DNA from: Candidatus Tiamatella sp.
GTDB taxonomy: Archaea > Thermoproteota > Thermoprotei_A > Sulfolobales > Acidilobaceae
Reading direction: 5' to 3'
DNA: 56,171 nucleotides
Assembly: GCA_015522645.1 (NCBI GenBank)
Contig: WALV01000024.1
Coordinates: 1 to 56,171, forward strand
The notes under the pieces were generated by a model. The model was not told the DNA's origin. It made no database searches and saw only the letters and a program-made list of their open reading frames with translations. Positions 1,243 through 48,245 of the stretch are shown one piece after another. Positions within the stretch are counted from its first letter, which is position 1, and every line of letters begins with the position of its first letter. The translations under genes were made by a program, and so were the position numbers.

Positions 1243-2463
1243 TTGCTTCGAAGAATACTAAAAGACGAGGATGACAAAGAAGTACCCATACTTATCACAT
1301 ACTTAATCCCATTCACATTTAACCCTATATACATGGTAAACGCATTAAGACACCTCGATAGAACCCTTTTCCCCAAAATGTCCAGGAACCTATCGGAATA
1401 CTTGAATAACCTACTTGATAAAGGGTTAGATCCTCTCACTGCTCTCTTAACCACCTCTGAGAAAGTCAAGAACAACATAATCTCCCGGCTGCTCGCGAAC
1501 TATGTTTATGTAGCTAAAAATGTCGGCTCAGCTACAATGCTCACAGTAACATTCCTCGAGAAAGCACTCGAATCTATACAGATGACGTGGGAGAACTTTA
1601 AGAACTATATGAATATTATCGTAGAAGTGGAGTTCGTCCTAGTGATGACTTCGATTATTGGAGTACTCCTAGTAATATTTAGCCCTCAAGGAGTAAGCTA
1701 TATAGCTATAGTACCATTATCAGTGTTTTTCCTGGCAATAGCCAGTTTAATGGGATACATTGTTCTTTCCCCTAACATGGGAAACCCCTATGATGAATTC
1801 CCGGAAAACAAGGGGTATACCATTTTATACTACTCTATAATCATTGCTATAATATCCGGTTTTATCCTACTACCAGAGTACACGCTATATATAACGGTGG
1901 GTTCCATCCTAGCTGGAGTAGCCCTAGAATACAGGGCCCGCAGGATTAGGAAGAACTTCACTAGGTTTATAGACGAATTATCCGCCATACTGAACAGCAT
2001 AGAAATAGGCTACCCGGGTACTCCTTCCATTAACAAGTTAGTCGGTAGCTATGGGTTGAAAGGGCGGATAGGAAGGCTGTTGAGAGCACTGAACAAGGGT
2101 GTCTCCATAGCCGGAGAAACAGGGTTGAGAGGATCATTTAGCAGGATAGTCAATGTGCTCAACAGTAGTTATAGATCATACTCGAAATACAGAGTTACGG
2201 CAGACGCCTATACCCTTTTGATAATAACTGGATACCTCATACTCGTCTATACAAACCATAGTATAGCAGGGTTATATGGAAACAGCAATCTAACCGGTGG
2301 GACCGCTGCTGTAATTAACGTAGCTCGCCTAGATCAGCTCATAGTCATATCTGCCTACCTGACACCCGTCGCAATAGGCCTATCGTACAGGCCGCGTATA
2401 CCACCATTACTCTATGCAGGGTTAAGTGCTCTAGCTATCTATACGATAACCCATTTTCTCTAG
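1243..2463 (+). CDS. TadC/GspF-like membrane platform protein of type IV filament system
   Basis: Multi-pass membrane protein of 406 residues, predicted to be the platform that partners the upstream ATPase. Hydrophobic segments lie at about residues 128-146, 154-178, 196-225, 325-338, 362-378 and 388-405, with a cytoplasmic helical stretch after residue 230 (ARRIRKNFTRFIDELSAI) typical of type II secretion F domains. The TTG start at 1243 is two bases from the ATPase stop, so the two are translationally coupled. Its 3' end overlaps the convergent thyX gene by 33 bases. Family assignment rests on topology and context more than on a clear signature, so the subtype (pilus, archaellum-like or Tad) is open. 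Confidence 0.75.
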   Translation: MLRRILKDEDDKEVPILITYLIPFTFNPIYMVNALRHLDRTLFPKMSRNLSEYLNNLLDKGLDPLTALLTTSEKVKNNIISRLLANYVYVAKNVGSATMLTVTFLEKALESIQMTWENFKNYMNIIVEVEFVLVMTSIIGVLLVIFSPQGVSYIAIVPLSVFFLAIASLMGYIVLSPNMGNPYDEFPENKGYTILYYSIIIAIISGFILLPEYTLYITVGSILAGVALEYRARRIRKNFTRFIDELSAILNSIEIGYPGTPSINKLVGSYGLKGRIGRLLRALNKGVSIAGETGLRGSFSRIVNVLNSSYRSYSKYRVTADAYTLLIITGYLILVYTNHSIAGLYGNSNLTGGTAAVINVARLDQLIVISAYLTPVAIGLSYRPRIPPLLYAGLSALAIYTITHFL

Positions 2464-3528
2464 GAAGAATAGGTTAGATCTAACACATCTAGGGATCCCA
2501 TCCCTATTAATATTCTCCGGGCACCTCTCCATAACAAGGCCAATACCGGTTATTAGTTCAGACAACGTTATAGGCTCCTTCCTTATAGCGTTCTCATAGA
2601 ATACGCATCTAGGGCCCGCATACTTAAATAGCCTCGGGTGAATGGATAAGAGTTTCCTCCATAGAAGCCATGCTACAATCCGGATTTCCCATTGTGCTTT
2701 AGTGCACATTCTCAAGGGTAGGAAACTCTGGATTAGCTCACGTGCATTCATAGTAATCACGAGCTTGGTCTGGACGCCCATAGGTATGATGAACCTTGCG
2801 TCTTCGGGAGGAATGCCCTTCGACACCATTTTTCTATACACGTGGAATAACCTGGAGGTCTCCCTGATGAATTCGGATGCGGCCTCCTTCTTGCTGGCTA
2901 TAGAAGGAGGGATGACGAAATCTATCATTCTACAATAACGCCTATACACATTCCTCACTGGAACCCTTAGCCCCTTCAAACTCTCAGGTATGTCACCGTC
3001 GATCATATCGTAGAGCCAAGACTCGACGAGCGAATCATCTAGACTATCCCCTGAACGGGTGTACTCGTCGACCAATGCATAGCCTTCTCTAACACGTAAA
3101 CGGAGAAGGGAATTATTACTAAATATTCTAATGGAATCGCCTGACCAGCACGCCTTAAGCACTCTACCGCTGAGAACAGGTAGATCTATGCATTTTCCCT
3201 TATATAACTCGGGTAGCAGGCACCTTTTATCGAAACCCAGTTTAGCATAGCGTAGGCTGAGCTGGGTGAAACTGGCTATCCTGTGTCTAACAAGCTGATG
3301 GCTACATACTCTACTGCAACCTTCAACTGTCCAAGTATAAACACTGTGTTCCCATGGACTGAAGTGCTGCCTCTTGAAGGTTTCCCTAATCCAGGCATCT
3401 ACTTCTTCATCACTCATCTTGGCGATTTGTACATCTAGGTCCCTCCTGCTAAGAGATCTCTTAGCGGCGGCGGCAACTATCCTATCCCCGTCAACAGTGT
3501 ATCTGACAACCTCTACTTTAACTCCCAC
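2431..3528 (-). CDS. thyX: Flavin-dependent thymidylate synthase ThyX, enlarged
   Basis: Makes dTMP from dUMP using methylene-tetrahydrofolate (or an archaeal pterin equivalent), NAD(P)H and FAD. The diagnostic motif RHR-x7-S is at residues 81-91 (RHRIASFTQLS) and is followed by LRY; FSPWEH lies upstream at 56-61. The C-terminal half carries the usual DFVIPPSI, GIPPEDARFIIP and NARELIQSFLPLRMC blocks. At 365 residues it is well above the usual 220-250; the extra roughly 100 residues lie between about 102 and 200, between the signature and the FVIPPS block. The GTG start at 3528 has a GAGGGG box 7 bases upstream. Divergent from ppsA with separate TATA-like boxes. Confidence 0.92.
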   Translation of the reverse strand: MGVKVEVVRYTVDGDRIVAAAAKRSLSRRDLDVQIAKMSDEEVDAWIRETFKRQHFSPWEHSVYTWTVEGCSRVCSHQLVRHRIASFTQLSLRYAKLGFDKRCLLPELYKGKCIDLPVLSGRVLKACWSGDSIRIFSNNSLLRLRVREGYALVDEYTRSGDSLDDSLVESWLYDMIDGDIPESLKGLRVPVRNVYRRYCRMIDFVIPPSIASKKEAASEFIRETSRLFHVYRKMVSKGIPPEDARFIIPMGVQTKLVITMNARELIQSFLPLRMCTKAQWEIRIVAWLLWRKLLSIHPRLFKYAGPRCVFYENAIRKEPITLSELITGIGLVMERCPENINRDGIPRCVRSNLFFLEKMGYRIDS

Positions 3529-36996: not shown

Positions 36997-37044
36997 TCTT
37001 ATTTTTCCCCATTTGCACAATCATTATAACTGCAGGTGGTTTTT

Positions 37045-37683
37045 TTGAGTACGCTTGAAGATGTCCGTGAGTGGCTGGAGAAAGGGACTGATGAAGCTAA
37101 GGATATCTCTGAGATCTCATGGGACGTGGATGAAATCAACGACACGAAAATTAAGGGCCTAGTCGCTGTGAATCCCAAGCTTCCAGTGAAACTGTATATA
37201 ACTGATAATGAGGAATTTAGCACTATAAGAATAATAGTACCAACAGGGATTTTGACGGCGGATCTGCCTCCTGAAGATAAGCTCAAAACATATAGAGCAC
37301 TACTAGTATTAAACAAGACACCTCTGGCTAAAATATACCTTGAAGGCATTAATGGAGAGGTATTCGTTGTATCTGACTTGAGTACCAAAACCCTAGGAGA
37401 AGACGAGTTCCATGACTCTATAAGTTTTACAATAAGCACAGTTATATCACTCTATAATAGATTTGGAGTTCCAAAGGATATTAGAACGGAAATGCTTGAG
37501 AACCTGGTATGGCTTATCCAGAGGAGACTGCAGAAAGGATGGACTAGAGAGAAGCTTGAAGAATTCCTGGTGAACAAGGTAGGTATGGGTAAACCAGAGG
37601 CTGAGCATCTTCTTGAAACGATATTTCCAACAAAGAAGAAAGAAGAGAAGAAAACCGGTGTTTCCGAGCAGATGTACATGTAG
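37045..37683 (+). CDS. Conserved hypothetical protein, chaperone-like fold possible
   Basis: Unrecognised 212-residue soluble protein. TTG 37045 has CAGGTGG 6 bases upstream, better than GTG 37036. The middle (LPVKLYITDNEEFSTIRIIV, then PPEDKLKTYRALLVLNKTPL and ISFTISTVISLYNRFG) has the strand-helix layout of the YbjN/type III chaperone-like fold, a suggestion only. The C-terminal 80 residues form a basic helical segment (LVWLIQRRLQKGWTREKLEE) and a charged tail. It follows GAPN by 48 bases and may be co-transcribed. Confidence 0.7.
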   Translation: MSTLEDVREWLEKGTDEAKDISEISWDVDEINDTKIKGLVAVNPKLPVKLYITDNEEFSTIRIIVPTGILTADLPPEDKLKTYRALLVLNKTPLAKIYLEGINGEVFVVSDLSTKTLGEDEFHDSISFTISTVISLYNRFGVPKDIRTEMLENLVWLIQRRLQKGWTREKLEEFLVNKVGMGKPEAEHLLETIFPTKKKEEKKTGVSEQMYM

Positions 37684-37740: not shown

Positions 37741-39360
37741 ATGGTGTATAGCCCATTGGATAAACGGAAGATAGGGTTCCCGGAAGCATTTGCTATTGGA
37801 GTCGGTGGAATGATAGGCGGTGGAATATTCGCCGTCTTGGGATTGAGCGTATCTATTAGTAAATATGGAGCGCCGATTGCTTTTCTGGTTGCTGGAATTG
37901 TAGCAATTGCTACAGGCTATAGTTATGCTAAATTATCAGTCCGATACCCGAGTAGGGGAGGGACTATAGAGTTTATAGTGAAAGGATTCGGACCTGGCGT
38001 GGTTTCCGGCGGTCTCAATATTCTATTATATCTCAGCTATACAGTCATGATAGCATTGTATAGCTTCGCCTTTGGGCACTATGCGGCTGCAGCTTTCAAT
38101 GCCGAATACCCTTGGCCTCAGATAATCGGTGCGACGGTCATATTAGGTTTTACCTTAGTAAACTCTCTAGGTGCGTATGTAAGCGGTAAAGTCGAGGATA
38201 TACTGGTATACATAAAGCTCAGTATTCTTCTAATAGTTGCAGGAGCAGGTTTTTTATATGTGAACTATTCAAGGCTTTCTCCGTCGAACTGGCCTTCCAC
38301 TATAAGTATTATTGCTGGAGGCATGATTATATTCCTCGCTTATGAAGGCTTTGAACTCATTGCTAATGCCTCGCAGGACGTTTATGATCATAGAATAATC
38401 CCCAGAGCACTATATTCATCGATTATTGCCACCACTATTGTTTACATAGGGATTGCTGTTGTTTCTATCGGTGTGCTTCCTTTAAGCGAGGTTATAAAGG
38501 CTAAGGATTATGCTCTTGCTATAGTAGCAAAACCTGCTTTGGGTTCCATTGGATTTTGGCTGGTTATAATTGGCGCATTACTATCAACTGCTAGTGCTAT
38601 AAACGCTACCTTATATGGTACTGCAGGTATTACATATCTAATCTCCAAAATAGGGTATATTCCATCAAAGCTAGGGAAAGCTATATGGAAGAATGCCACT
38701 GAAGGATTATTTTTCATTGCATTGGTATCCATGGTATTCGTTATATATGCTCCTCTTCAAACAATATCTGTTATTGGGAGTTTAGGGTTTCTGACAATAT
38801 TTGCTAGTGTAAACATAGCTGCATACTTTCGCAGAACGGAGATAAAAGCGAATGCATACATTGTTCTAACAGCTATATTACTATCTCTCTTCTCGCTTGG
38901 TGTTCTATTATACGATCAAGCACATAGCAGTCCAAGTTCAGTAGTATTATTCCTAGGTGTCTTATGTGGAAGCTTCATATACGAATACGTGTACAGGAAT
39001 ATCACAGGACGTGAAATCCGTGAATATATTGATGAGAAACTTGAGGAGAGAATGAAACTGGTTGATGAATGGAGAAATTGGCTGCCTAGTTTTGTTGTTG
39101 AGTTGAAGAAGATTGTCGGTGAAGCCAGGGTTTACTTGATCGGTAGTGTTGCCAGAGGGGAAAAAGCAGTATCCCATGACGTAGATATTCTAGTTGTGGT
39201 GAGAAGTAAACCTAGTGTAAAGGAACAGAGAAGTATAGTTGATAAGGCGGTTAAGAATGCCGGTCTCTCTTCATCTCATCCAGTTCACGTTCACTTCGTT
39301 ACAAGGGAAGAGGAGGAGGAATATAAGTCTAGGAGCAGGAAATACCATCGCCTAGATTAA
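37741..39360 (+). CDS. APC-family amino acid permease fused to a nucleotidyltransferase domain
   Basis: Two-part protein of 539 residues. Residues 1 to about 425 are an amino acid/polyamine/organocation permease: the first helix has IGVGGMIGGGIFAVLGLSV, the hallmark substrate-binding glycines, and about twelve hydrophobic segments follow. After a charged linker (ITGREIREYIDEKLEERMKL) a soluble domain of about 90 residues carries GSVARG at 468-473 and DVD at 480-482, the GSx10DxD motif of DNA polymerase beta-like minimal nucleotidyltransferases, followed by HPVHVHFV. The frame is continuous; no frameshift or second start is needed. Convergent with the nuclease gene, overlapping by 9 bases. Confidence 0.88.
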   Translation: MVYSPLDKRKIGFPEAFAIGVGGMIGGGIFAVLGLSVSISKYGAPIAFLVAGIVAIATGYSYAKLSVRYPSRGGTIEFIVKGFGPGVVSGGLNILLYLSYTVMIALYSFAFGHYAAAAFNAEYPWPQIIGATVILGFTLVNSLGAYVSGKVEDILVYIKLSILLIVAGAGFLYVNYSRLSPSNWPSTISIIAGGMIIFLAYEGFELIANASQDVYDHRIIPRALYSSIIATTIVYIGIAVVSIGVLPLSEVIKAKDYALAIVAKPALGSIGFWLVIIGALLSTASAINATLYGTAGITYLISKIGYIPSKLGKAIWKNATEGLFFIALVSMVFVIYAPLQTISVIGSLGFLTIFASVNIAAYFRRTEIKANAYIVLTAILLSLFSLGVLLYDQAHSSPSSVVLFLGVLCGSFIYEYVYRNITGREIREYIDEKLEERMKLVDEWRNWLPSFVVELKKIVGEARVYLIGSVARGEKAVSHDVDILVVVRSKPSVKEQRSIVDKAVKNAGLSSSHPVHVHFVTREEEEEYKSRSRKYHRLD

Positions 39361-39870
39361 ATCATACTTGATCCATTTGACTTTACATTGTTCAATAAGT
39401 TTCTTGACTTCTTTTTCCCTTGATGACAGCTTGTTATTTCTTCCCGCCTTAACCTCTACAAACAAAATCTCCTGTGGCTTATCCTCGTATAGTCCTTTGA
39501 AAACTATGTAGTCGATAGGGCTGCCTATGAACCTTGCGTCCTTGGGGTTTATACCTAGTTTTAATGCGAAATCGAGTGGTGCAAGCTGTTCAGCAACTTT
39601 TCCTAGAACGACTGAGCTGCTTCTTTCCACGGCATCCTTCCTTATCTTGTCCTCCTCCATTCTCTTCCAAGACTCTAATGCCGACTTATACTTCTCTTCT
39701 AAAACCACTGCAAGCTTGGAGGCCTCTTTTTGCAGTTCTTTTGCCTTCCAATCCTCTAGTAGCTTTCTATACTTATCCTCTAGAGAGAGTTCTTTCTTTC
39801 GGATCCACATGTTCATGGTTAGTCTCTCATAGACAAGCATTAGAAATAATAGAATTGTAACCACGATCAA
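39352..39870 (-). CDS. Membrane-anchored endonuclease related to Holliday junction resolvases
   Basis: 172 residues: one N-terminal hydrophobic segment (about 2-15), a charged coiled-coil region (about 25-90), then a PD-(D/E)xK nuclease domain. The conserved string RSSSVVLGKVAEQLAPL is followed by DARFIGSPIDYIVFKGL (metal-binding Asp), and EILFVEVKAG with the ExK pair. This is the pattern of the archaeal predicted secreted endonucleases distantly related to Hjc. The TTG start at 39870 has no close ribosome-binding site, so the N-terminus is uncertain. Confidence 0.8.
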   Translation of the reverse strand: MIVVTILLFLMLVYERLTMNMWIRKKELSLEDKYRKLLEDWKAKELQKEASKLAVVLEEKYKSALESWKRMEEDKIRKDAVERSSSVVLGKVAEQLAPLDFALKLGINPKDARFIGSPIDYIVFKGLYEDKPQEILFVEVKAGRNNKLSSREKEVKKLIEQCKVKWIKYDLI

Positions 39871-43961: not shown

Positions 43962-46900
43962 TTGGGCGCATCAAGGTTCATCGCTAGAAAACCAGTGGTT
44001 ATAATTGCAATATGGTTTATTATAGCTGCAGCTTCTGCACCACTATTCATGAAGCTAGACAATGTTCTAGTTACACAGGAGCAAGGATTGCTACCTCCTA
44101 ATACTGAGAGCCAGCAAGCTGAGAAACTCCTTGAAAACATCACAGGAAGTTCAGGTGACAGTTATGCTTTACTCTTAGTGGACAACGTTAACGTATCGTC
44201 TCCCGATATAGCATTGAAAATAGGCACATGGTATATGAGCAAAGAAAGCGAGCTGTCCCAGTACTCGGAGAAAACCATGGGATACCCTGTTATAATCGCC
44301 GAAGTCTACAATGGTATTAGAAGCCAAACACTTCAAGGGCTCAATCAGTCCGTGTCCTCGGTCACGAAAAGCGTACACGCGGCAGAAATAGTCAATGAAA
44401 CCGTTCAGAGAGCCTGGTACTTGGATCATGCCTTATTGAATGAAACAAAGAACACTAGAGAGCAGTTGATACTAGCAGATAAAGCATATACTGGTATATA
44501 TAGTAACTTAACTGTTCTCAGGAAATCATATCTCAACCTTAACAATACAGTATACACTCTCTCGTATGCCTGGAACAATGTTCCAGACCTCTATAGTAAA
44601 GTTTGGTTTGATATAAGTAGAACACACTACTTCCTAATGACGAATACAACTGCTTATCAAACCGGGAGCCTGACACCTAGCGACATAGATTTAGTTACCA
44701 AGCTAACTAATACTACTGGTATAGGACCCGTCAAGCCTGAGGAAGTAGTCGCTTACTATAGACTAATAATGAATTTAACTAAAGGCAATCCCTCCCAAGC
44801 TGATTATAAAACTATATCAGAAGCTACCTTGATTACATGTCTCCATGAACTCCAGCAACAAACTGTCAACACGAATAATCAAATAGTAGCTGGTGCATTG
44901 GAAACATATAACAACATCTGGGAGAAATCGCTAGAAATAGCCAACCTAACTAATCTTCCATTGCTCTATAAAGTGGAAAGCCAGCTATATGTCTATGATA
45001 CAATAAAAAATATAGAACTCCAAGCGAAACCGTATGCTATTAAGGCTTTCTCAGAATTCATAGCTAAAAGTATGTCCGAAAAAACCGGGATCAACGCTAC
45101 GTTTCTAGTTAAATTCATAAAAGAGGCAAGTAATCTAAAATACCCACCAGACCCTTCACAGGCCAACCAGCTTATTACTAGCTTGCTTACATCTAACGCG
45201 GGAACCGGAGAACGAAAAGAATTCCTGTCACAAGCCTTAGAAATAGTCTCGCAGAGAAATCCAATGCCTACGGATGCACTTAAAATTGTAATCACGACAA
45301 CCGAAGAAGAGACCGGTAGCAAGGAGACAGCATCATATATAGGTATGATATTACAGCAATATGACCCTCAGGCTACCGGTGCAATTATAGCTGACAATGA
45401 AACGTTGGCGAAGGCTATCGCCGACTTATTTACAAATATGACACCAGCAAATCTGACATCGATATTGAATTCAAGTATAATACATACAATCATCTATTCA
45501 TTCGCACAAGTATTAAACAACAAGAATGCTACGCAAAGCGATTTCTCGATTGCATTAAACCAAGCATACAATATGATTATTAAAGAGTTCATTAAAGAGG
45601 TGCTTAACAAGACTCCTGTGAACGCACGGCCTTTCATGGAGTACCTGTTCAAAGCGGCTGGTAACACTGGTATTTACAGGTTCGATATTAGGCAAATACT
45701 ATTGCCGATCCTTGTCCAACAAGCTGAAAACATAGCCGGTGGAACCAGAAGTATTAACATGCCGGTAAAGCTGATAAAAACTAATCTATGGGAAGCATTC
45801 AACATTGCATATTACCACAATGAGACCATGGAAGAAGCTGTGGGTAAGCTCAGCAGACAAGCGTTCTATAGCATGTATGGAAAACTCCTGGACTCCCTAA
45901 AGGGAACCGTGGTATCAAGAGATGCTGCTGCATTCTTAATATCATTCAAACCATACGCTGAACCAAGCGAGGAGGACCCCACATACTACTATCAAGCACA
46001 GAACTTTACCAGAATAGTGAACGAAACCCTTGGAAAGTATGTTGAAAACTATAAGCTCTACCTGACTGGATCCGGAATAATAGAATATGAGACACACCAG
46101 CTATCAGGCGAGGATATGAAGCGTGTTGACACTCTGAGCAATACCATGGTTATCATATTCTTATTCCTAGTATTGGAAAGTATTGCGGCAGTAATCATAC
46201 CATTCATGGGAATTTTCGTGGCTATCCTAATAGCGGGCGCTTTAGCATATCTTATAGTAACAGGAGGAATAGTAGACCTATCCTCATGGGCTAGAGTTGT
46301 AATGATAACCACTAGTCTAGGACTAGGTGCTGATTATGCAGGATTCATATCCTATAGGTTTAGAGAGGAGTTCCATAATACTAGGGACTCTAAACTAGCA
46401 GCGGAAAGAGCATTATCTAGAACCTATGCGGCTATCATAACTAGCGCGACAACAGCTATCATTGGCTTCGGCAGCCTAGCGTTAGCCCATGACTTCCCAT
46501 TCCTCCTAAGCTTCGGAGTCTCTATACCCTTAGCAATTTTCATAACAATGCTAGCAGGAGTTACACTCATTCCGGCTTTACTATCCCTACTAGGAGGCCA
46601 TAGTAGGTTCTGGTGGCCTAAGACACCGGAGAAACTGTCAATTAGAGGCAGAAGCTGGTTGGGAAGTAAAATAGTCAAATACGCGAAAATAGTAATAATA
46701 GTGTGGATTCTTGTATCAATTCCTTCGGCATATGCATATGCAACATTCAAAGGAAGCCACAACATGCAGGTGTTCCTACCGGAAGACAGTAGCGCTGTGA
46801 AAAGCTTCAATGTTGTATCCAAGAAATTCGGTGCGGGAATAATATATCAGACATACGTCGTCGTCGAGTTAAATAAACCGTGGAACTCCACTGACTCGCT

Positions 46901-47726
46901 CAACGCTCTAAAGAGTATCGATGAAGCACTGAAATCGAAAGACTATATAGTAGGTATATCAGGACCGCTTGAGTATACTAATTCGACGATGATGCCGGGT
47001 TCGAGCAAGGCGAACCCGTACGTTAGTAAAGACGGGAGAACAGTGTATATCTCGGTTTTCATAAGGGATAATCCCCTAGGCAATAAAGGAATAAGTGAAG
47101 TTAAAGAGCTTAGAGAAACGCTTCATAGCACAGAATTTGGTGCCAGTATAAAGAGGATACTTGTAGGGGGGTTTGCAGCATCTATGCTTGAAATGGAGAG
47201 CCTGCTAAACGACAGGTTCTATCATAGAGTCCTGCCTGTCGCAGTTACGCTAATGATCATAGCTTTCGCGGTTGCATTCAATAGTATAGTAGCGGCATTA
47301 GCGGCGATAACGGTTATTATAACATCAGCAATGATAGCTATAGCGGGTGCTGAGATAATATTCCAGGACTGGCTTGGTAAACCTGTCCTGTGGTTCCTGC
47401 CCATAATGGTGTTAACAGCGATCCTTGGAGTAGGTATGGACTATAACAGCTTCTCTCTAAGCAGAGCTAGAGAGGAATGCTTGAAAGACTGTAGTGATAA
47501 TAGTATAGTGCTGGCAACAGCTAGAGTAGGGCTGTTAGTGTTCGGTTTATCACTAATAATGGGTAGCGCGTATCTATCAATGATGTCATCACATACATGG
47601 GGTATGAGAGAGCTAGGATTCACGTTAGGTACCGGAGTTCTACTAGCAGGAGCTATGGCAAGCTATCTGGTTAACCCTTCGATCATAGCTGTTCTCAAGG
47701 CTAAAATGTGGAGGAGAATAAGGTGA
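43962..47726 (+). CDS. MMPL/RND-family exporter with very large first ectodomain
   Basis: 1254-residue membrane transporter of the MMPL type (RND superfamily), proton-driven export of hydrophobic compounds. It has two halves: TM1 at about 8-27, a roughly 690-residue extracytoplasmic region (about 30-720) rich in NxS/T sites and helices, then TMs 2-6; a second half opens near 900 with a much smaller ectodomain (about 930-1087) and five more TMs. The proton-relay Asp-Tyr pairs are in GLGADYAGFISYRFREE and GVGMDYNSFSLSRAREE. The TTG start has AGGTGA 7 bases upstream. The PadR gene follows after 6 bases. Confidence 0.92.
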   Translation: MGASRFIARKPVVIIAIWFIIAAASAPLFMKLDNVLVTQEQGLLPPNTESQQAEKLLENITGSSGDSYALLLVDNVNVSSPDIALKIGTWYMSKESELSQYSEKTMGYPVIIAEVYNGIRSQTLQGLNQSVSSVTKSVHAAEIVNETVQRAWYLDHALLNETKNTREQLILADKAYTGIYSNLTVLRKSYLNLNNTVYTLSYAWNNVPDLYSKVWFDISRTHYFLMTNTTAYQTGSLTPSDIDLVTKLTNTTGIGPVKPEEVVAYYRLIMNLTKGNPSQADYKTISEATLITCLHELQQQTVNTNNQIVAGALETYNNIWEKSLEIANLTNLPLLYKVESQLYVYDTIKNIELQAKPYAIKAFSEFIAKSMSEKTGINATFLVKFIKEASNLKYPPDPSQANQLITSLLTSNAGTGERKEFLSQALEIVSQRNPMPTDALKIVITTTEEETGSKETASYIGMILQQYDPQATGAIIADNETLAKAIADLFTNMTPANLTSILNSSIIHTIIYSFAQVLNNKNATQSDFSIALNQAYNMIIKEFIKEVLNKTPVNARPFMEYLFKAAGNTGIYRFDIRQILLPILVQQAENIAGGTRSINMPVKLIKTNLWEAFNIAYYHNETMEEAVGKLSRQAFYSMYGKLLDSLKGTVVSRDAAAFLISFKPYAEPSEEDPTYYYQAQNFTRIVNETLGKYVENYKLYLTGSGIIEYETHQLSGEDMKRVDTLSNTMVIIFLFLVLESIAAVIIPFMGIFVAILIAGALAYLIVTGGIVDLSSWARVVMITTSLGLGADYAGFISYRFREEFHNTRDSKLAAERALSRTYAAIITSATTAIIGFGSLALAHDFPFLLSFGVSIPLAIFITMLAGVTLIPALLSLLGGHSRFWWPKTPEKLSIRGRSWLGSKIVKYAKIVIIVWILVSIPSAYAYATFKGSHNMQVFLPEDSSAVKSFNVVSKKFGAGIIYQTYVVVELNKPWNSTDSLNALKSIDEALKSKDYIVGISGPLEYTNSTMMPGSSKANPYVSKDGRTVYISVFIRDNPLGNKGISEVKELRETLHSTEFGASIKRILVGGFAASMLEMESLLNDRFYHRVLPVAVTLMIIAFAVAFNSIVAALAAITVIITSAMIAIAGAEIIFQDWLGKPVLWFLPIMVLTAILGVGMDYNSFSLSRAREECLKDCSDNSIVLATARVGLLVFGLSLIMGSAYLSMMSSHTWGMRELGFTLGTGVLLAGAMASYLVNPSIIAVLKAKMWRRIR

Positions 47727-47732
47727 ATAGAA

Positions 47733-48245
47733 ATGGTCTCCACACCGCGAATATCTAACCCTTTTTATTTAAGGACAAGGTTCACTGTACTACTTCTCCT
47801 AGCTAGTGGAGAAATGCATGGTTATCAGATTATCAAGTTCCTCAAGACTATAAAACTAGGCGAACGGAATCCTGGTCCATCCACTATATATCCTATACTG
47901 CATAGACTGGAGAAAGAAGGTCTCATAGAATCGGTATATGAGAAAGGAGAGAAAAGGAAGGCTTATAGAATAACCGATAAAGGAATGGCGTTTTTGAAGT
48001 CGAGAATCAGGATTGCAAGAGAATTCATGTCTTATTTCCAGGGAATCCTGGATTTAGTCGAGGCTAAAATCGATAGTTATGAACCTAAGAAAGCGGATTA
48101 TGTAAGAATCCTTAGAGAAGCCTATGATTCCATGTATAAACTATGTGAGAGGATCAAGGGAGCCCTAGAGGAAATAAATAGAGAAATCTCTAAGGAGAAA
48201 ACCTGGAGGAACCCTGGTAAATATATTAATGTCTCCTCTTCATAG
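47733..48245 (+). CDS. PadR-family transcriptional regulator
   Basis: 170 residues. The N-terminal winged helix is the PadR type: FTVLLLLASGEMHGYQIIKF, then GPSTIYPILHRLEKEGLIES, then EKRKAYRITDKGMAFL. The C-terminal part (LDLVEAKIDSYEPKKADYVR) is a helical dimerisation region. PadR proteins usually repress neighbouring drug-exporter genes and release DNA on binding a ligand. It lies 6 bases after the MMPL gene and the pair has a palindrome at 43908, so autoregulation is likely. Its 3' end overlaps the convergent methyltransferase by 20 bases. Confidence 0.92.
   Translation: MVSTPRISNPFYLRTRFTVLLLLASGEMHGYQIIKFLKTIKLGERNPGPSTIYPILHRLEKEGLIESVYEKGEKRKAYRITDKGMAFLKSRIRIAREFMSYFQGILDLVEAKIDSYEPKKADYVRILREAYDSMYKLCERIKGALEEINREISKEKTWRNPGKYINVSSS

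Follow-up and report, generated by a model that had tools for sequence, protein, structure and literature searches.

The window analysed here, the whole stretch of 56,171 nucleotides from Candidatus Tiamatella sp., carries a gene that appears to encode an amino-acid permease, proton-coupled and of the ApcT type, into which a cytoplasmic regulatory domain is built. This domain is predicted to bind nucleotide and metal and to descend from an archaeal minimal nucleotidyltransferase (MNT), an assignment that we favour with moderate confidence. The gene (37741-39360, forward strand) begins with ATG and encodes 539 amino acids in a single frame, the other two frames of this interval holding 50 and 38 stops. 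An ApcT-type permease (residues ~1-422) is followed by an MNT domain (~437-537), and the two parts are alike in GC content (0.41 and 0.42, respectively). Pfam recognized both, with AA_permease_2 (PF13520) at residues 11-391 (E 8.1e-34) and NTP_transf_2 (PF01909) at residues 454-537 (E 1.5e-9; 38.6 bits against a curated cut-off of 21). The initial annotation, which described one frame joining a permease to a nucleotidyltransferase domain, is thus borne out, and its positions for GSVARG (468-473) and DVD (480-482), as well as the GSx10DxD spacing, were exactly right. The checks that it proposed gave the same picture: the profile search of the tail returned the PF01909 match, a survey of related crenarchaea (214 genomes of the same archaeal order) found full-length fusions in 47 genomes from at least six families, and structure prediction by AlphaFold2 modelled the tail with a pLDDT of 85-95 within the full model (84 when modelled alone). 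The features of the gene are as follows.

37741..39360, forward strand: entire fusion gene, stop codon included; a single open frame, whose homologues are full length in 47 archaeal genomes and in 9 bacterial ones.
37771..39006, forward strand: ApcT-like 12-helix permease domain, residues 11-422 (PF13520, 3gi9 match, Foldseek 3gia).
38215..38217, forward strand: K159, equivalent of MjApcT Lys158, counted along the 3gi9 alignment; Lys in 56/56 fusions.
38833..38835, forward strand: R365, on the cytoplasmic loop between TM10 and TM11; its conservation pattern makes it a candidate tail contact.
39007..39048, forward strand: residues 423-436, the junction between the domains, including D431 and L434, which are specific to the fusions (sequence comparison).
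39049..39351, forward strand: minimal nucleotidyltransferase domain, residues 437-537 (PF01909 at 454-537, AlphaFold2, Foldseek 1ylq).
39142..39159, forward strand: GSVARG, nucleotide-binding motif, residues 468-473; G468 in 47/47 archaeal and 0/9 bacterial copies.
39178..39186, forward strand: D480-V-D482, DxD metal-binding motif; both Asp in 47/47 archaeal and 0/9 bacterial copies.
39277..39294, forward strand: HPVHVH, residues 513-518, in which H516 occupies the third-carboxylate position (alignment of fusions).

The permease half has the 12 helices and LeuT fold of its family and significant homology to ApcT, its closest solved relative being MjApcT (MJ0609, 3gi9; phmmer E 5.4e-66). When the full AlphaFold2 model (mean pLDDT 90, pTM 0.91) was compared by Foldseek, it matched 3gia with an E value of 9e-24 and a TM-score of 0.92 by target length (0.91-0.92 for the ApcT entries 3GIA/3GI9); KimA (PDB 8B70) was also among the structural matches. 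The Na2 site holds the lysine expected for proton coupling (K159), and in ApcT itself Lys158 has been implicated in this coupling (PMC12764776). Position 365 is Arg in 46/47 archaeal fusions, yet in none of the nine bacterial fusions and in only one of the 10 nearest unfused permeases. R365 may contact the tail or the tail's ligand, but the pattern could stem from very few evolutionary events or a change in one lineage. At the junction, D431 and L434 are present in all 56 fusions and missing from unfused relatives. As a separate observation, an unfused permease of a distant archaeal family (L036, G382:C12; 45% identity to the query) clusters with unfused relatives from bacteria and may have entered archaea by transfer.

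By both sequence and fold, the closest solved relative of the tail is AF0614 (1ylq; Foldseek E 2.4e-5, TM-score 0.72 by target length), and the next Foldseek matches are other minimal nucleotidyltransferases, MntA among them. Among proteins that are not fusions, standalone archaeal MNTs from the same order come closest to it (best E 3e-30). Many such standalone genes, often clustered, were seen in two genomes, G514 (L173, L184) and G074 (L174, L186), with 13-15 matches each. The tail displays the hG[GS] and [DE]h[DE] motifs of the family, represented by G468, S469, D480 and D482. Since G[SG]x10DxD appeared in merely 0.1% of trials with residue-shuffled tails and is kept across dozens of species, the motif is not a product of chance. 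G468, D480, D482 and H518 are invariant in the 47 archaeal copies, while position 469 holds Ser (35 copies) or Gly (12 copies), both of which hG[GS] permits.

The third catalytic carboxylate, h[DE]h, is absent from the Tiamatella copy, which carries H516 in its place. We take residue 516 to be the third catalytic position on three grounds: its distance from the preceding DxD strand is similar (34 residues, vs 30 in MntA), it lies on the next predicted strand (515-520), and it is aligned to the Glu of h[DE]h in AF0614 and the standalone proteins. The third ligand of MntA is D71, which helps to hold the second Mg ion (PMC7641770); we equate H516 with this residue from motif order, strand position and spacing, and not from a direct residue alignment to MntA. 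The tail therefore belongs to this fold and family by descent, but is no canonical active enzyme. Among the 47 archaeal copies, residue 516 is His in 30, including Tiamatella, Asp in 17, and nothing else, whereas the equivalent residue in 16 standalone MNTs is Glu in 12, Gln in two, Asp in one and His in one. Fitch parsimony placed eight changes at this position over the tree, with the bacteria accounting for one (i.e., about seven Asp/His switches). That only Asp and His occur, both of them metal ligands, suggests that a metal ligand has been kept, though not a strict carboxylate.

When 398 genomes sampled from the phylum were searched, full-length fusions appeared only within Tiamatella's order. 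Nine full-length bacterial copies, mostly from Thermodesulfobacteriota and including Thermodesulfatator autotrophicus (L004), were retrieved by scanning GTDB contigs and Thermodesulfobacteriota, the contig scan relying on exact short peptide patterns that surely missed some. In a permease tree of 96 rows, all fusions, together with one bacterial permease considered below (L197), formed one branch (support 100/99), in which the bacterial fusions were nested among the archaeal ones, beside L067 (support 99/90). The fused tails likewise formed one branch relative to the 16 standalone MNTs (SH-aLRT 99, by a quick method on few columns). These trees fit a single archaeal origin of the fusion and a single transfer into bacteria; the archaea-to-bacteria direction is one that we infer, as the root was set at the midpoint with distant outgroups. 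In nine close archaeal pairs, simple Nei-Gojobori estimates of dN/dS, with dS well under saturation in most pairs, were 0.02-0.12 for the permease and 0.01-0.15 for the tail. Judged by these comparisons, the fusion is old and under purifying selection in dozens of species. One broken relative was also observed (L187, G421:C9, ~2019-3400), in which the permease piece contains two in-frame stops and the tail is split over two frames, reflecting either decay or an assembly error.

The bacterial tails have lost the site altogether. In the nine copies, G468 is replaced by Asp or Glu, D480 by Lys, Thr or Arg, D482 by His (9/9), residue 516 by Lys, Arg or Cys, and H518 by Ser or Thr. At an E value of 0.01, the PF01909 profile matched 47 of 51 tails, and the four bacterial tails tested were those that did not match. 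Only eight columns combine at least 95% conservation among the archaeal copies with change in most of the bacterial ones, and since four of these are active-site residues, the loss of catalysis or ligand binding was a concerted one. The bacterial tails nonetheless remain full length and mutually alignable, with 38-64% identity compared to 68-85% for the permease. For the bacterial pair L004/L192, dN/dS was 0.056 for the permease and 0.21 for the tail, at partly saturated distances, values by which the tail is relaxed yet still constrained. A Thermodesulfobacteriota-type permease nested among the fusions (L197, G763) has a tail that stops ~10 residues into the domain, an apparent secondary loss. 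Thus, the retention of tails without any catalytic residue in nine genomes indicates that the domain is useful in some way without catalysis, while its faster evolution relative to the permease and the one bacterium that lacks it mean that the bacterial domain may be decaying.

The surroundings of the gene are variable. Its neighbours in the window encode an HD-domain protein, an aldehyde dehydrogenase, a protein without an assigned family, a D-2-hydroxyacid dehydrogenase and a thiamine-pyrophosphate enzyme. A Holliday-junction-resolvase-like endonuclease (39352-39870, reverse strand; PF10107, E 2.3e-47) is convergent with the fusion gene and overlaps its last few bases, a pairing common to only the two other genomes of the genus. 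Just upstream lies a conserved-looking protein of 215 residues without a Pfam match (37036-37683, forward strand). Farther along the same strand, a 1254-residue frame resembles, by eye, a large membrane exporter (43962-47726), with a PadR-type regulator directly 3' of it (47733-48245; PF03551, E 6e-20). Across 46 loci, no neighbour was conserved beyond close relatives, in archaea and bacteria alike, and therefore nothing outside the fusion protein is obviously needed. A function based on an operon was rejected, as neighbours vary between families and the recurring pairs are only lineage-local (such as a sugar kinase with an aldolase, and a spermidine-synthase-like gene, all identified by eye rather than by profile). 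A defence system was likewise rejected, the PADLOC matches being to generic nucleotidyltransferase candidate models.

Taken together, we propose that an archaeal minimal nucleotidyltransferase, originally a standalone protein, was joined to the permease in a single event, directly after its last transmembrane helix, a position that by ApcT topology would put the tail on the cytoplasmic side, where TM12 ends. The archaeal tail would bind nucleotide and a divalent metal via G468, D480, D482 and D/H516, and the nucleotide state of the cell would set permease activity through it, by analogy to KimA and c-di-AMP; in the His-bearing copies, transferase activity would be weak or absent. Because the bacterial copies kept the domain after its catalytic residues were lost, the tail probably serves to modulate the importer and is not simply an enzyme. 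The Asp/His-only position 516, together with the dead yet retained bacterial tails, favours binding and regulation over obligatory transfer. Against a purely sensory role, catalysis, too, would keep both DxD aspartates as strictly conserved as they are in archaea. The initial annotation suggested a transporter modified or regulated by nucleotide transfer, such as AMP addition; nucleotide binding as the means of regulation is a better fit than obligatory transfer, a reading that is weakened by the His at the third-carboxylate position, shared by 30 of the 47 archaeal copies, and by the bacterial domains kept without catalytic residues.

The strongest alternative, which we regard as unlikely but worth serious consideration, is that the tail is an active nucleotidyltransferase that modifies either the permease itself or a second protein with AMP or a different NMP, providing a covalent switch of transport. 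Such switching has precedents in the action of MntA on HepT and of GS-ATase on glutamine synthetase. The intact GSx10DxD, invariant in all archaeal copies, is what an enzyme would require, metal binding is possible for His too, and covalent transfer could be envisaged above all for the 17 Asp-bearing copies, whose three-Asp (D/D/D) set is full. Transferase activity is nevertheless doubtful for the Tiamatella copy, one of the 30 out of 47 in which the third metal ligand is His. Moreover, there is neither a conserved partner gene nor a Tyr or Lys whose conservation is peculiar to those copies that retain the site; a target of auto-modification was rejected on this ground, all conserved Tyr residues being present in the dead bacterial copies as well. 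GSx10DxD is essential for AMPylation by MntA (PMC7641770) and by a Legionella MNT, and changing DxD to ExE abolishes the activity of both MntA (PMC7641770) and the Legionella protein. As this change is already enough to kill both enzymes, the site is unforgiving. A more specific proposal, to which we assign a rather small probability, is of a self-contained transporter: its own nucleotidyltransferase, tethered to the membrane and using an unusual Asp/Asp/His metal site, would covalently nucleotidylate it or a partner and so switch amino-acid uptake, the bacterial branch having become a pure pseudoenzyme regulator.

That the tail serves only structurally, stabilizing or localizing the permease around an incidental nucleotide site, we consider improbable. 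The bacterial copies that keep the fold without the site would suit such a role, as would the invariance of D431 and L434 at the junction, but the archaeal site is conserved as strictly as any part of the tail, which mere structure leaves unexplained. The initial annotation also raised the possibility of a toxin-antitoxin MNT recruited to the membrane, i.e., an anchored antitoxin of the HEPN/MNT type acting on a HEPN toxin encoded elsewhere. The tail does fall in PF01909, the family of MntA, and the genome contains other PF01909 genes. However, no HEPN gene was found among the annotated neighbours, in agreement with that annotation, and the HepT family PF01934, the one HEPN family searched for genome-wide, had no match in the 98% complete genome. 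With no neighbour conserved across loci to act as a partner, a score of 13.8 bits against the NCBIfam MntA equivalog cut-off of 60, and the fused tails forming their own clade beside standalone archaeal MNTs, we find this origin highly improbable. Finally, the idea that two genes were joined by a frame error or by a chimaeric assembly, which nothing commends except the unusual domain pairing, has a negligible chance of being correct, given the same full-length fusion and identical junction in 56 genomes from separate assemblies, some of them single-contig chromosomes, and purifying selection on both halves.

Automatic annotations of such fusion genes surely exist. Our full-text literature search found no account of a permease-nucleotidyltransferase fusion, and as most subscription papers lie outside its coverage, this is weak evidence of novelty. 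Transporters with cytosolic nucleotide-sensing domains are known, while a polymerase-beta-type nucleotidyltransferase in that position is apparently undescribed in the literature searched. The fusion suggests a way in which the uptake of amino acids may be tied to the supply of nucleotides in hyperthermophilic archaea. Furthermore, within one gene tree the family constitutes a natural series, from the standalone enzyme with Glu to fused tails with Asp, with His and with the site erased, so that the transition from enzyme to sensor and on to pseudoenzyme is open to direct testing.

Each part of the fusion has a known counterpart. MjApcT (PDB 3GIA/3GI9), a proton-coupled amino-acid transporter of the APC superfamily, is 33% identical to the permease half over 428 columns, and its proton-coupling Lys aligns with the invariant K159, in line with a predicted amino-acid permease of the ApcT type; yet ApcT, at 444 residues, ends just after its last helix, without a nucleotidyltransferase tail. 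AF0614 (PDB 1YLQ) and the standalone archaeal MNTs share the GS, DxD and HPx.xH layout of the fusion tails, but are separate small proteins, mostly with Glu at the third site, where the fusions have His or Asp. MntA of the HEPN/MNT type VII toxin-antitoxin system has in common the PF01909 fold and the GSx10DxD motif, and differs in its HEPN partner, in its D71 in place of His as third ligand, and in defining an NCBIfam cut-off that the fusion falls under. KimA is a potassium importer of the APC superfamily whose cytosolic C-terminal domain binds c-di-AMP. It thus resembles the fusion in its permease fold and in having a regulatory tail in the cytosol that binds a nucleotide (predicted in the case of the fusion), but it carries another substrate and its tail has another fold, the two tails not being homologous. 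In permeases with universal-stress-protein domains, an amino-acid permease is likewise followed by a C-terminal cytosolic nucleotide-binding domain, whereas the domain appended in the Tiamatella fusion has the nucleotidyltransferase fold.
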